A DNA stretch of 34,377 nt, from contig JARKSS010000341.1 in NCBI GenBank assembly GCA_029974175.1, forward strand, positions 1-34,377, read 5' to 3'. This document shows, piece by piece, positions 2,731 to 9,183 of the stretch. The translations under genes were made by a program, and so were the position numbers. The notes under the pieces are model-generated. The model did no database searches. It was not told the origin of the DNA and was given only the letters and a program-made list of their open reading frames with translations. Source of the stretch: Vicinamibacterales bacterium. Its GTDB lineage: Bacteria; Acidobacteriota; Vicinamibacteria; Vicinamibacterales; Fen-181. Position 1 is the stretch's first letter. Each line of letters starts with the position of its first letter.

Positions 2731-3708
2731 TCAGCGCCGATGCCTGGCCGCGGTCGCGGCTCCAGGTTTCGTTCCGCATGCCACGATGACCGTGAAGGGA
2801 TCGCCCTTCCGGCGGGCGCCGACCTGCTGGCGCACGTCGGTGAACCCCGCCTTGCGCATCGCGGCGCCGAGCGCGCGATCCTCGAAGCCGAGCCACCGGT
2901 CGTCGAGCCGGTCGCGCACCCAGTGCTGCTCGTGGCGCCGAAGATCGAGAACGAGCGCCCTGCCGCCGGGAACCAGCACGCGCGACGCCTCGGCCAGCGC
3001 CACCGCCGGGTCGGAAGCGTGGTGCAGCGCCTGCGAGAGCAGCGCCAGGTCCACGCGAGCGTCCGGCAACGGCAGCGCCTCGATCTCGCCGCGCTTCCAC
3101 GTGATGTTCTTCATGCCGTGGCGCGCCGCCAGCTCACGGGCCGACTGCAGGACGGCTTCCGAACGGTCCACGGCGATCACGCGGCGCGCCCATCGCGCCA
3201 CCTCGATGGTGAGATAGCCCTCGCCGCATCCCAGGTCGGCGACCGTCAGCGGCGGCATCAGCAGGCCGAGCGCCCGCGCCCATGCCGCCCAGCTGCGGCC
3301 GGGCACCAGCTGCCGTCCCTCGCCGCCGCTGTGCTCCTCGAAATTCTCCTGCCGCAGCCGCAGCACCTCCTGCAGCCGCGCCTCGTCTTCGCGCCCCGTT
3401 GGTCCCGCCGCGATGATGGCGAAGTGGGCATCGAGGAGGTTCCAGAGCGCATCCGCCGCCTCGCTGCCGTCGCGCGGCGCCACGCGGTAGTAGGCAAACC
3501 CGCCCGCGCGCTCCTCGGCCACCAGCCCGGCCTCCTTGAGCAGCCCAAGGTGCCGCGAGACCCCCGACTGCGCGACGCCAAGCACGGCGGTCAGCTCCGT
3601 GACGTTGAGGCGCTCGCGGGCGAGCACCCTGAGGAGGCGGAGGCGGGCCTGGTCTCCGAGCAGGCGGTAAAGGGCCGGCGTCAGTTCCACGCCCAGATCT
3701 GACCACAT
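2731..3708 (-). CDS. ArsR-family HTH regulator fused to a class I SAM-methyltransferase-like domain (SahR-like)
   Basis: HTH: LYRLLGDQARLRLLRVLARERLNVTELTAVLGVAQSGVSRHLGLLKEAGLV. SAM-binding motif VADLGCGEGYLTIEVA. ORF is open to 3795, but MWSDLGVELTPALYRLL at 3708 is the more likely start because the extra 29 aa overlap the divergent promoter region. Confidence 0.85.
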   Translation of the reverse strand: MWSDLGVELTPALYRLLGDQARLRLLRVLARERLNVTELTAVLGVAQSGVSRHLGLLKEAGLVAEERAGGFAYYRVAPRDGSEAADALWNLLDAHFAIIAAGPTGREDEARLQEVLRLRQENFEEHSGGEGRQLVPGRSWAAWARALGLLMPPLTVADLGCGEGYLTIEVARWARRVIAVDRSEAVLQSARELAARHGMKNITWKRGEIEALPLPDARVDLALLSQALHHASDPAVALAEASRVLVPGGRALVLDLRRHEQHWVRDRLDDRWLGFEDRALGAAMRKAGFTDVRQQVGARRKGDPFTVIVACGTKPGAATAARHRR

Positions 3709-3811
3709 CACCCGGGGCCGTGCCAACCCGTCGCTGGGGCCGCAAAGCGCCAAGCCCGGATGCGGCGTCGGAACGTTACATACACAAATTGACATACGTT
3801 GATATTTCTTC

Positions 3812-3841
3812 TTGACAGCCCCTCCCCTCCGGCCCTAGAAT
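3812..3841 (+). promoter_or_regulatory. Putative sigma70-type promoter for the asd-lysC-metY-metX operon
   Basis: TTGACA (3812-3817), 18-nt spacer, TAGAAT (3836-3841), in the only AT-rich patch of the divergent intergenic region. Confidence 0.65.
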
Positions 3842-3891
3842 CCGTTCCCAGAGTGACGAACCTCCTTTCCCCCACCGGTGCCCCGCGGCTG

Positions 3892-3939
3892 ATGTCGATG
3901 CGCAGCTACAGCATCGGTGGGGGAGCCGTGCCCGGGTAG
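3892..3939 (+). CDS. Putative 15-aa leader peptide MSMRSYSIGGGAVPG*
   Basis: ATG TCG ATG CGC AGC TAC AGC ATC GGT GGG GGA GCC GTG CCC GGG TAG within the leader. Open in frame back to a GTG at 3853 just after the predicted +1. No clear Shine-Dalgarno for the internal ATGs. Confidence 0.35.
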   Translation: MSMRSYSIGGGAVPG

Positions 3940-3971
3940 CCGCCGGGCGCGAACGGGCCGAGGCCGAGCAA

Positions 3972-4011
3972 ACCCGCCGATTGGCAACAGCCGGTCGGCG
4001 GGTCTTTTTTT
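3972..4011 (+). terminator. Rho-independent terminator/attenuator upstream of asd
   Basis: ACCCGCCGATTGGC (3972-3985) AACA GCCGGTCGGCGGGT (3990-4003): 14-bp stem with two G-U pairs, then CTTTTTTT (T run 4005-4011); 22 nt before the asd start. Confidence 0.85.
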
Positions 4012-4032
4012 GCGTGCGAGGAGACACACCAG

Positions 4033-5163
4033 GTGGAACCGGGCCAGTGTTGGGACGTCGGCGTGCTCGGGGCGACCGGCCTCGTGGGGCAGCAGATCGT
4101 GCGGCGTCTCGAGGGGCACCCCTGGTTCAGGACGTGCTGGCTCGGGGCGAGCGAACGCTCCGCCGGCTCCCGCTACGGCGACCTTCCCTGGCTGCTGAAT
4201 GAGCCGCGGCCCGCGAGCGTGAACGATCTTTTCGTCCAGCGCGCGACGCCCGGCCAGGCGCCCCGCCTGCTCTTCTCGGCGCTCGATGCCTCTGCCGCAC
4301 TGGACATCGAGAAGGCGTTCGCCGAGGCCGGACACATCGTCGTCAGCAACGCTCGCCCGCACCGCCTGGATGCCGACGTTCCGCTGATCGTCCCCGAAGT
4401 GAACCCCGGCCACCTCGCGCTCCTCGACGTGCAACGCCGCCAACGCCGATGGCAGGGCGCCATCGTCACGAATCCAAACTGCTCGACCGTCTTCCTTGTC
4501 ATGGTGCTCGCGGCCTTCCGCGAGTTCCGCCCACGGCGGGTCGTGGTGACCACGCTGCAGGCGGTGTCGGGTGCCGGGTACCCGGGCCTGCCGTCGTGGG
4601 ACGTCCTGGGCAACGTCATCCCGTTCATCGACGGCGAGGAGGAAAAGATCCAGACCGAGACGGCAAAGATCCTCGGCACGCTGGAGGGCAACTCGGTGGC
4701 GAACGATCCGGTCGCGGTGAGCGCGCACACCACGCGCGTTCCGGTCGCCGACGGGCACACCGAGACGATCAGCATCGAATTCGAACGGCCACCGGCGGAG
4801 GAAGCGCTCGTCGAAGCGCTCGCGCGCTTCTCGGGCCGGCCGCAGCAGGCCGGTCTGCCCTCGGCGCCAAGGTCCCCGATCGAGGTCGTGCCGGGGCACG
4901 ACCGGCCGCAGCCAAGGCTCGACCTGGCGCGGGGCAACGGGATGACGGTGTCGGTCGGCCGCATCCGCCGATGCCCGGTGCTGCACTACCGGCTCGTCGC
5001 GCTCGGCCACAACACCGTTCGCGGCGCCGCCGGCGCAGCCCTTCTCAACATGGAGCTGCTGGCGGTGGACGGCTGGCTGGGGCCGCCGCCCGGTGCCGGC
5101 ACGCCCTCCTGCGAGCCGGCGCTTGCAACCGGAGGCCTGGCAGGCCAGGGAGGTGACGCGTGA
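4033..5163 (+). CDS. asd: Aspartate-semialdehyde dehydrogenase
   Basis: VGVLGATGLVGQQIVRRLEGHPWF, IVTNPNCSTVFLVM (catalytic Cys), QAVSGAGYPGLPSWDVLGNVIPFI. GTG start with GAGGAG (4018-4023) upstream. Confidence 0.95.
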   Translation: MEPGQCWDVGVLGATGLVGQQIVRRLEGHPWFRTCWLGASERSAGSRYGDLPWLLNEPRPASVNDLFVQRATPGQAPRLLFSALDASAALDIEKAFAEAGHIVVSNARPHRLDADVPLIVPEVNPGHLALLDVQRRQRRWQGAIVTNPNCSTVFLVMVLAAFREFRPRRVVVTTLQAVSGAGYPGLPSWDVLGNVIPFIDGEEEKIQTETAKILGTLEGNSVANDPVAVSAHTTRVPVADGHTETISIEFERPPAEEALVEALARFSGRPQQAGLPSAPRSPIEVVPGHDRPQPRLDLARGNGMTVSVGRIRRCPVLHYRLVALGHNTVRGAAGAALLNMELLAVDGWLGPPPGAGTPSCEPALATGGLAGQGGDA

Positions 5164-6587
5164 TCGTCATGAAGTTCGGCGGGTCGTCAGTGGCGACCTC
5201 CGCGGCGATCGCGAGGGTGAGGTCGATCGTCTCGAGCGAACGCAGGCCGCGCGTCGTGGTGGTGTCGGCCCTCGGCGGCGTGACCGACGCGCTGCTCTCC
5301 GCGGTTGCCAGCGCCGAGGCCGGGGATTCGGCCACGGCGCTCGGAGTGGTGGACGCGCTGCGCGAGCGGCACCGCGACACCGCCCGCGCCCTCCTGGCGG
5401 CGGTCCCCGCGGCACTTCTCTCGGCGCTGGACGACTGCTGGTCCCGTGCGTTCCAGAGGTTGCGCGGGATGGCACGCACGGGCCGCGCGACGGCCCGCCT
5501 GCGCGACGAGGTTGCAGCCGTCGGAGAACTCGCCAGCAGCCTGCTGGTGAGATCGGCGTTCGAGGATGGCGGCCTGCGGACGATGTGGGTCGACGCGCGG
5601 CGGGCCGTGGCCACCGACGACCGGCACGGCGCCGCGTCTCCCCTCTTCGGGCCAACGGCCGAGCGCCTGCGATGGTCAATCCTGCCCGCGCTCGAGCGGG
5701 GCAACGTCCCGGTTGTCGGCGGCTTTGTCGGCTCCACGCTCCGCGGCGTCACCACGACGCTCGGCCGCGGCGGGTCAGACCTCAGCGCGTCGTTGATCGG
5801 GGCTTGCCTCCAGGCCGAGGAGATCCAGATCTGGACCGACGTGGACGGCCTCCTGACGGCCGACCCGCGGGTCTTCGACCGGCCGCGCCCGGTCGACGCG
5901 CTGACCTTCGGCGAGGCGGGTGAGCTGGCCCACTTCGGCGCGAAGGTGCTGCACCCGGCCGCGGTGGACCCGGCAGCAAGCGCCGGGATACCGGTTCGCA
6001 TCCTGAACTCGAGCCGCCCCGACGCGCCAGGCACGCTGATCGCGGGACATCACCACGCGCGTCCCGGCCTGGCCGCCCTGGCCTGCCACCGCGACCTGGC
6101 GGCGCTGGAGGTGGACTGCCCCCCTGGCACGCGCGAACGAGTCCTCGCCGAGTTGTTCGGCGAGTGCGCGCAAGCCATGCTCCCCGTGCACCTGGCTGCC
6201 CTGGCCGACTCGCGAATCTCGATCGTGGCCGGCTCGGGTGCGCCGCTCGAGAACGTCACGAAGGCGATCGGCCGGCGATTGAGCCTTCGCCGCCGCGACG
6301 GGCTGGCGCTGCTGGCCGCCGTGGGCGAGGGCCTGCGCGAGAGGGGCCCGGGCGAAGAACACGCCGTGGCGCCTCGCTGGTCGCCCGCAGACGTGTTCGC
6401 CGCGCTCTCGGGGATTTCCCTTCACCTGGTTTCGCGCGCGCCCGGCAGCCGCCACATCGCGTTCGTGCTGTCGGACGCCGACCTCCCGGCCGCGACGGCG
6501 CGACTTCACCACGAATTCCTTTCCGCTCCGGCCTGGAGCGACTGCTCCGCCGCTTTCGGGGTTGCCGCGGCCGGCGGTGCGAGATGA
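5160..6587 (+). CDS. lysC: Aspartate kinase
   Basis: [65 protein letters not shown] start overlaps the asd stop codon (GTGA). Confidence 0.93.
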
Positions 6588-6646
6588 CTCCTGCAGCTCC
6601 CAGACGACGGGTGGCCGGCCGAGGCCGCCCCGAGGAGGATGGATCG

Positions 6647-7969
6647 ATGCCTCGACACGGATCGTTCGGGCCTGCCACGACCGCGCTGCACGGCGGCCAC
6701 ACGCCAGACCTTGCCACCGGCGCCTGCGCCGTCCCGATCTACCAGACCGCGTCCTACGTGTTCGAATCAGCCGACCACGCGGCCGCGCTCTTCTCGCTCG
6801 AGAAGCCGGGCTACATCTACACGCGGATCGGCAATCCCACCACCGACGTGCTCGAGCGGAGGCTTGCCGGGATGGAGGGCGGGGTGGGGGCGCTGGCGCT
6901 GGCGTCGGGCCAGGCGGCCATCACCACCGCGGTGCTCACGCTCGCGCGCGCCGGCGACAACATCGTCTCGACCACGTCGCTCTACGGCGGCACCGTCAAC
7001 CTGTTCCACCACACGCTCGCGCGCATGGGCATCGAGGTCCGCTTCGTGGACACCTCCGACGCGGCCCGTGTGACATCGGCCATCGACGACCGGACGCGGC
7101 TCGTCTACACCGAGTCGATCGGCAACCCGGGCAACAACGTGGACGATTTCGAGGCCCTCGCGGATGTGGCCCACGCGGCCGGCGTGCCGTTCGTGGTGGA
7201 CAACACCGTGACGCCCCACCTGTTCAAGCCGTTCGACCACGGTGCCGACCTCATCGTCTACTCGCTGACGAAATTCCTCGGCGGCCACGGCACCTCCATC
7301 GGCGGTGCGGTGGTTGATTCGGGCCGCTTCAACTGGGCGAACGGACGGTTCCCCGAGTTCACGACGCCCGACCCGTCGTACCACGGCCTGGTCTACTGGG
7401 ACGCCTTCGGCCTCCACGACCGTGCGCTCGTTCGAGGCGCCGCGTTCATCACCAAGGCCCGCGTGCAGGTGCTGCGCGACCTCGGGGCCTGCCTCTCTCC
7501 GTTCAACGCGTTCCTGTTCCTGCAGGGAATCGAGACGCTGCCCTACCGGATGGCCGCGCACGCCTCGAACGCGAGGCGCGTCGCGGAGTACCTGAGCGCC
7601 CACCCCGACGTCGCCTGGGTGAACTACCCGTTGCTGCCCGATCACCCCGACCACGAGCGCGCCCGGCGGTACTTCCCTTGCGGCGCCGGTGCCATCATCG
7701 GCTTCGGCATCAAGGGCGGCCGCGAGGCGGCAGAGCGGTTCATCGGGGGCGTCCGGCTGTTCAGCCACCTGGCGAACATCGGCGACGCGAAGAGCCTGGT
7801 CATCCACCCGGCTTCTACGACGCATCAGCAGCTGACGCCCGAGCAGCGGAAGGCGGCGGGCGTGACCGACGACTTCATCCGGCTCTCGGTGGGGATCGAG
7901 GATCCCGACGACCTGATCGCCGATCTCGAACAGGCCATCACCAGGGCCCGAAAGGTGCCGGCAGCATGA
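6647..7969 (+). CDS. metY: O-acetylhomoserine sulfhydrylase (Cys/Met metabolism PLP-dependent enzyme)
   Basis: [72 protein letters not shown] (PLP Lys). ATG at 6647 preceded by GAGGAGG. Confidence 0.93.
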
Positions 7970-9183
7970 GGGACGAGGGAGCCGGCGGCATCGGCCAGGT
8001 CGAGGCGAAGATCGTCGAGGTGTGTTCGGGCGGGCTGACGCTCGAGAGCGGGCGTCGCCTCGAATCGGTCGAGGTCGCCTACGAGCAGTACGGCGAGGTG
8101 GACGAAGCGCGGGACAACGTGGTGCTGGTGTGCCACGCGCTGTCTGGAGGCGCACACGCGGCGGGGTGGCACCGGGGCGCGCGAAAGCCCGGGTGGTGGG
8201 ACAACCTGGTCGGGCCGGGCAAGGCGTTCGACACGCGGAAGTACTGCGTGATCTGCTCCAACGTGCTCGGCAGCTGCTACGGCACCACCGGCCCCTCGTC
8301 TGCAGATCCGGCAACCGGGCGTCCCTACGGCAGCCGTTTCCCGATCGTGACCATCGGCGACATGGTCACCGTGCAGAAGGCCCTCCTCGATCGGCTCGGC
8401 ATCCGCCGCCTGCTGGCGGTCGCCGGCGGGTCGATGGGCGGGATGCAGGCGCTGCAGTGGGCCGTCGCCTACCCCAGGTCGGTGCGCTCGGTGATCGCCA
8501 TCGCCACCGCGGCCCGGCACTCGCCGCAGCAGATTGCCTTCAACGAGATCGCCCGGCGCGCGGTGATGGCCGACCCGGCCTGGGCAGGCGGCGACTATTA
8601 CGGGGGCGCGCGCCCCGATCGCGGCCTCGCGGTCGCACGGATGGTCGGGCACGTCACGTACCTGTCTGCCGGCGGCATGGAGCGGAAGTTCGGCCGGCGG
8701 ACGGCGGGGCCCCACCCGGCGTGGACGCTCGAACCAGAGTTCGAGGTCGAGCGCTACCTCTCGCACCAGGGCCGCGAGTTCACGGCCCGGTTCGACGCCA
8801 ACTCGCTCGTGTATCTCACGCGCGCCATCGACTATTTCGACCTGGGAGCGGGGTGGCCGTCGCTGACCGAGGCGTTTCGCGCGACGCGGGCCTCCTTCCT
8901 GCTGCTGACCTTCTCATCCGACTGGCTGTATCCGCCGCCCCAGCTGGCCGAGGTTGGCCAGGCGGCCAGGGACGCCGGCCGCGAGGTGGAGTATCACGAG
9001 ATCCCGAGCGGGTACGGTCACGACGCATTCCTGCTGGAGAGCGAGACGCAGACGCGCATCATCCGCTCGTGGCTGGAACGCGTGGCCGAGTCGTCGCGGC
9101 GGCCGCGCGTGCCGGTGCCGGCGCTGGCGAGAACAAAGACTTCTTACTGGATGCCGGCCCGGGCAGGCGGGCAAGGACGGTGA
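7966..9183 (+). CDS. metX: Homoserine O-acetyltransferase
   Basis: [69 protein letters not shown] overlap with the metY stop. Confidence 0.94.

Follow-up and report, generated by a model that had tools for sequence, protein, structure and literature searches.

The window, a stretch of 34,377 nucleotides from a Vicinamibacterales bacterium (contig JARKSS010000341.1), carries the operon asd-lysC-metY-metX, which makes homocysteine from O-acetylhomoserine. Between its promoter and asd lies a leader with a short upstream open reading frame (uORF), two hairpins and an intrinsic terminator (Table 1). The promoter is not expected by chance (0.0 in shuffles), and in the relatives, a promoter of this type stands at the corresponding position before the leader. 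The terminator also has counterparts in most of them.

Table 1. Features of the asd leader and the operon downstream in the window.
Feature	Position	Strand	Basis
Sigma-70-type promoter, TTGACA-18-TAGAAT	3812..3841	+	consensus scan, 11/12 matches
uORF, GTG start, TAG stop, predicted leaderless, encodes VTNLLSPTGAPRLMSMRSYSIGGGAVPG	3853..3939	+	translation, position, blastn match
Stem 1, 15 bp (3867-3881/3911-3925), pairs segment 2 in untranslated RNA	3867..3925	+	MFE
Proposed control codons Met14 (AUG 3892) and Met16 (AUG 3898)	3892..3900	+	last-codon position; proposed role
Segment 2, 5' half of the antiterminator, within the uORF	3913..3921	+	pairs 3973-3981 in MFE of 3911-3985; same place in 61 leaders
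9-bp hairpin (3927-3935/3943-3951) across the uORF stop codon	3927..3951	+	MFE
Intrinsic terminator, 14 bp (3972-3985/3990-4003), 4-nt loop, then seven T's (CTTTTTTT)	3972..4011	+	
Segment 3, common to the antiterminator and the terminator 5' arm	3973..3981	+	
asd, aspartate-semialdehyde dehydrogenase	4033..5163	+	NCBIfam TIGR00978, 401.9 bits
lysC, aspartate kinase	5160..6587	+	NCBIfam TIGR00657, 281 bits
metY, O-acetylhomoserine sulfhydrylase (start approximate)	6644..7969	+	NCBIfam TIGR01326, 635.7 bits
metX, homoserine O-acetyltransferase	7972..9183	+	NCBIfam NF001209, 492 bits

The leader is predicted to fold stably, as the MFE of 3848-4012 is -92.3 kcal/mol vs -71.0 +/- 4.4 kcal/mol in shuffles (z = -4.8), with stem 1 itself at z = -4.2. 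The original prediction had described the promoter, a 10-bp first stem, an 8-bp second hairpin, the 14-bp terminator with its seven T's and a competing 8-bp pairing, and all of these were recovered at the same positions; the 10-bp stem is contained in the 15-bp stem of the MFE fold, in which the second hairpin has 9 bp. The competing pairing, 3914-3921 with 3973-3980 (one G-U), is present and gives the mutually exclusive structures that had been proposed for an attenuator, with the antiterminator formed by the 3' part of the uORF. This pairing grows to 9 bp (3913-3921:3973-3981) while the 3' arm of the terminator is not yet made, and the antiterminator is the MFE structure when a ribosome is placed on the Met codon at 3898 and only segment 3 has been synthesized. 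Once the 3' arm is present, the complete terminator is more stable than the antiterminator by 13 kcal/mol, and kinetics and the order of synthesis must therefore decide between them. In classical attenuators, it is likewise the order of synthesis that decides between the structures.

A stable fold combined with a mutually exclusive terminator would also suit a riboswitch, in which the leader RNA would itself be the receptor for SAM, Met or another metabolite of the aspartate family and the uORF would be incidental. However, no Rfam 15 family reached its gathering threshold anywhere in the window, and under gathering and loose thresholds nothing usable or near threshold was obtained in the leader, be it from the covariance models for SAM riboswitches (RF00162, SAM-II and others), lysine riboswitches and the T-box, or from the Rfam amino-acid leader families (Trp, His, Thr, Leu and Phe leaders); the original prediction had likewise recognized no known riboswitch. 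A conserved core resembling an aptamer was not noticed in the related leaders, in which it is the position of the uORF and the control codons that are conserved, and stem 1 is weakly conserved among them (mean z -1.0, below -2 in 11/61). Direct metabolite binding is thus highly improbable. The riboswitch-type SAM or aspartate sensor that had been envisaged for this leader is left unsupported, whereas the other option that had been raised, translation of a short uORF, now has a concrete counterpart in the uORF of Table 1, which had not been picked out before.

The GTG start of this uORF lies 11 nt past the -10 box, and the 5' UTR would consequently be only a few nt long; the frame closes with TAG at 3937-3939. 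It contains just two internal Met codons, which by our own estimate would occur by chance in ~13% of cases at 2.3% Met. As two Met codons are not unusual by themselves, the assignment to methionine rests on the relatives of the leader. The last Met codon of the window uORF is located at -42 nt from the stop end.

The Asd search covered 162 genomes of the order and found the gene in 112, and the upstream regions of 97 loci were taken. At ~62 of these asd loci, a promoter is followed, mostly at 9-11 nt after the -10 box, by an ATG or GTG that opens a uORF of ~20-40 codons, and in most of these leaders a terminator is found some 22-44 nt past the uORF stop. The short uORF between promoter and terminator is thus shared by the window and its homologs within the order; the promoter-based scan found no such leader before Asd relatives outside it. 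By blastn against 60 relatives, the same place was matched 5' of asd in two other genomes (G041 and G032), where the uORFs encode MPARLHTTPAAAMRMMAMRMTSIGGGAVAGP and MARPTDSTPAAAMRMMAMRMTGIGGGAVSGP; a third Met-type relative, G010, has MATRFLSPRPATMSMPMMAMRMTSIGGRIVSGP. A second blastn match in the window's own genome (C377, L002) was set aside, being a 47-base, GC-rich stretch mostly outside the uORF.

The control codons of these leaders follow the operon. The majority are Lys/Arg-rich ('TRKR...GRKRA.RVGG') and are found before asd-lysC-dapB-dapA-dapD-dapE, whereas the four Met-type leaders, those of the window and of the three f5 genomes G010, G032 and G041, precede asd-lysC-(hom)-metY-metX and contain no Lys (metY was undetected by tblastn in G041, L044). 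The three f5 uORFs have 5-6 internal Met codons, the last at -39 from the stop end. A scan blind to composition, using promoter, start spacing, length and T run as its only criteria, gave the same picture: all leaders found before lysC/dap (50/50) contain Lys, which makes up 8.9% of leader residues, compared with 2.4% for Asd proteins and 2.8% when the same DNA is read in its other frames, while the three Met-operon leaders that it found have 14.6% Met and zero Lys. At 24 asd loci without lysC/dap neighbors, it returned 0 candidates. Control codons thus match the amino acid of the operon across the family, weakly so in the window alone with its two Met codons. The place of these codons is also shared: in Lys-type leaders, the last Lys codon has its median at -42 nt from the stop end, exactly where the last Met codon of the window uORF is found. 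With segment 2 at about -35 to -20 and with ribosome edges assumed, a ribosome stalled on the last control codon would leave segment 2 free. In the Lys-type leaders L046-L135, the Arg preceding Lys is nearly always encoded by the rare codon CGA, resulting in an almost invariant CGA-AAG dicodon; CGA accounts for 35% of Arg codons in leaders vs 5% in asd. Placed directly ahead of Lys, this rare Arg codon may make stalling sharper.

The alternative pairing is conserved where it would be required. The uORF stretch from -40 to -12 relative to the stop end pairs with the 5' arm of the terminator at a mean z of -2.0 against the leaders' own shuffles, and the segment 2:segment 3 pairing is below -2 in 34/61 leaders; the leaders are related, so these values are not independent tests. 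Three control windows gave mean z values of -0.3 to +0.2, confining the pairing to its proper place. Both sides of the pairing change between families (CCGUGUCGG:CCGACACGG in f6, AUCGGUGGG:CCCGCCGAU in the window, CCGCGCGCGGGU:ACCCGCCGCGCG in f4). Of the switch between stem 1 and antiterminator that had been predicted, the mutual exclusion of antiterminator and intrinsic terminator is therefore conserved, but stem 1, as stated above, is weakly so. That the leader holds an unregulated terminator accompanied by a chance pairing is scarcely credible: terminator-like sites as such are not rare here, with 0.7 expected in shuffles of the region, but the whole arrangement is kept at ~62 loci and the pairing is limited to one place.

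The leader is best read, with a probability of roughly 0.83, as a ribosome-mediated transcription attenuator that controls the methionine operon asd-lysC-metY-metX. Translation of the uORF, stalling, Met specificity and read-through are what we infer from the elements and their conservation in the sequences. Transcription would begin at ~3848, and the uORF would be translated leaderless from GTG 3853. When Met-tRNA is ample, the ribosome would cover segment 2 and block its pairing while the polymerase makes the terminator, which would form and end transcription at ~4011. When Met-tRNA is scarce, the ribosome would halt on AUG 3892 or 3898 and segment 2 would stay free to pair with 3973-3981 ahead of the terminator 3' arm, allowing the polymerase to proceed into asd. 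In untranslated RNA, stem 1 would fold and termination would follow, such that the switch would be set by the position of the ribosome and not by stem 1 alone. Two further points speak against this attenuator: a ribosome sitting on the last control codon has its 3' edge near segment 2, and pairing of stem 1 around a stalled ribosome is conceivable. Moreover, the related leaders that support the model are not independent of one another.

Ribosome stalling could also be brought about by the nascent peptide, if the leader peptide, for example with its SIGGGAV end, sensed methionine or SAM in the ribosome tunnel. SIGGGAV and RVGGV endings do recur, but their codons coincide with segment 2, and RNA pairing therefore explains the recurrence. 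In the 17 close pairs of leaders, no amino-acid conservation beyond the constraints on the RNA and no purifying selection on the leader peptide was seen, as substitutions fall on the three codon positions without bias (57/59/57); these pairs are few and partly non-independent. Given this lack of bias, the coding nature of the uORF is supported by its position, its open frame and the in-frame enrichment of control codons only. Together with the tandem leaders described below, whose endings differ while Met runs are kept in all, this makes peptide-mediated arrest very unlikely.

Such tandem leaders occur in three genomes from the family to which the window belongs (G003, G004 and G005; L245, L246 and L247), which are without this asd but have hom-metY-metX. 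This operon is preceded by two tandem Met-rich leaders with 6-8 internal Met codons each, in G003 MLPRTTTMSMRMPMSMGMRVGGVCAIGS (predicted leaderless) and VTLFIFDSSSSSARLTAVSAVVSMGMAMRMRSMAAMSMRRRAGG, and each has its own terminator and is able to form its own antiterminator, possibly making up a double attenuator. These loci were reached via MetX, without the use of any Met pattern. Among the matches to the pattern ATGNNNATGNNNATGNNNATG in 161 genomes, the four that were inspected outside the metX loci of G003, G004 and G005 look like parts of ordinary protein genes. Neither the scan nor the upstream sequences inspected showed Met-rich leaders before metX or metY in the remaining families of the order. 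The first G003 leader ends in RVGGVCAIGS and the Lys-type leader of G013 has CRVGGMCALGA, a similarity of endings that suggests a common origin of the two.

These leaders also bear on whether attenuation in the window might answer another amino acid (Thr or Ser) or general starvation. The window has just two Met codons, and some Lys-operon leaders (those of f4, L102 and others) are also Thr/Ile-rich. The nearest homologs, however, carry 5-6 Met codons at the same place, the leaders of the window's family carry 6-8, and the operon makes homocysteine, all of which renders another specificity unlikely. Attenuation through Met codons is accordingly retained, and the best reading of the sequences is that the window leader is a re-specified relative of a lysine attenuator.

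In the Asd tree, the Met-type proteins form one clade (support 100/99). The root of this tree is arbitrary, and we thus infer a Lys-to-Met direction from how widely the Lys type is distributed. DapB models have no match in the window genome (G000; PF05173 and PF01113) or in the three f5 genomes (PF05173), and no Lys-rich leaders were found before DHDPS-family genes of Met-type genomes. LysA and DapF are nevertheless present in all four. Loss of lysine synthesis and lysine auxotrophy are therefore not claimed; DapB may be divergent in these genomes, or lysine may be made by an unusual route. SAM-I riboswitches were found in 2/4 of the Lys-type genomes tested and in 0/6 of the Met-leader genomes tested.

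In trpL, hisL and thrL of enterobacteria, a short uORF begins near the promoter, carries control codons specific to the end product and is combined with competing antiterminator and terminator structures. The window leader shares this short uORF, its control codons, the competing structures and the start near the promoter. Unlike these systems (the Trp, His and Thr leaders of Rfam), the Vicinamibacterales leaders use Met or Lys codons, are predicted to be leaderless, belong to another phylum, and have segment 2 within the uORF, where it precedes the stop by 20-35 nt instead of lying around or after it. Methionine and lysine synthesis is mostly known to be controlled by riboswitches, the T-box or repressors. 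Methionine and lysine operons of other species are listed as riboswitch-controlled (PMC1262725); SAM and lysine riboswitches thus serve the same pathways elsewhere, but the window leader has no sequence or structure match to them and would be controlled via uORF translation.

Among the leaderless leader peptides of Actinobacteria, the specificities include Trp, Leu, Ilv and Cys, and obvious terminators are lacking in several (PMC8079986, PMC1262725); these peptides share the leaderless uORF as amino-acid sensor but do not concern aspartate-pathway biosynthesis. A methionine candidate is metL, which stands before metNIQ of Streptomyces lividans and is leaderless, with two internal Met codons and no clear terminator (PMC8079986). 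It likewise puts Met codons in a leaderless peptide before a methionine gene set, while, compared by description, it precedes transporter genes in Actinobacteria and the window leader has a terminator and biosynthesis genes. A 2010 survey knew leader peptides from Proteobacteria and Actinobacteria only and left almost all attenuators of Acidobacteria unassigned (PMC2965389). In the literature searched, which mostly did not cover subscription journals, metL is the one, weak, candidate for a methionine leader peptide, and no paper uses the term 'lysine leader peptide'. The class of mechanism is thus classical, and the Met and Lys specificities, the swap between them, the tandem copies and the phylum appear to be new. 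The Vicinamibacterales leaders, with predicted leaderless uORFs on the aspartate pathway, re-specified from Lys to Met where asd-lysC joins methionine and not dap genes, and including tandem double Met attenuators, are probably the first leader-peptide attenuators for methionine and lysine that are well supported. One homologous leader in Lys, Met and Thr/Ile-flavored versions that track the operon provides a natural series for the evolution of attenuator specificity.

Divergent from the operon, a gene at 2731-3795 (-) encodes a protein with an ArsR-type HTH at the N terminus and a methyltransferase domain at the C terminus, which could act as a co-regulator of the operon; no relative of it was found at the f5 or G003-G005 loci retrieved. 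Just 5' of the -35 box, the window has ATACGTTGATAT at 3794-3805 and G010 (L042) has ATACGTGGATA at the equivalent position; these sequences are a possible operator.
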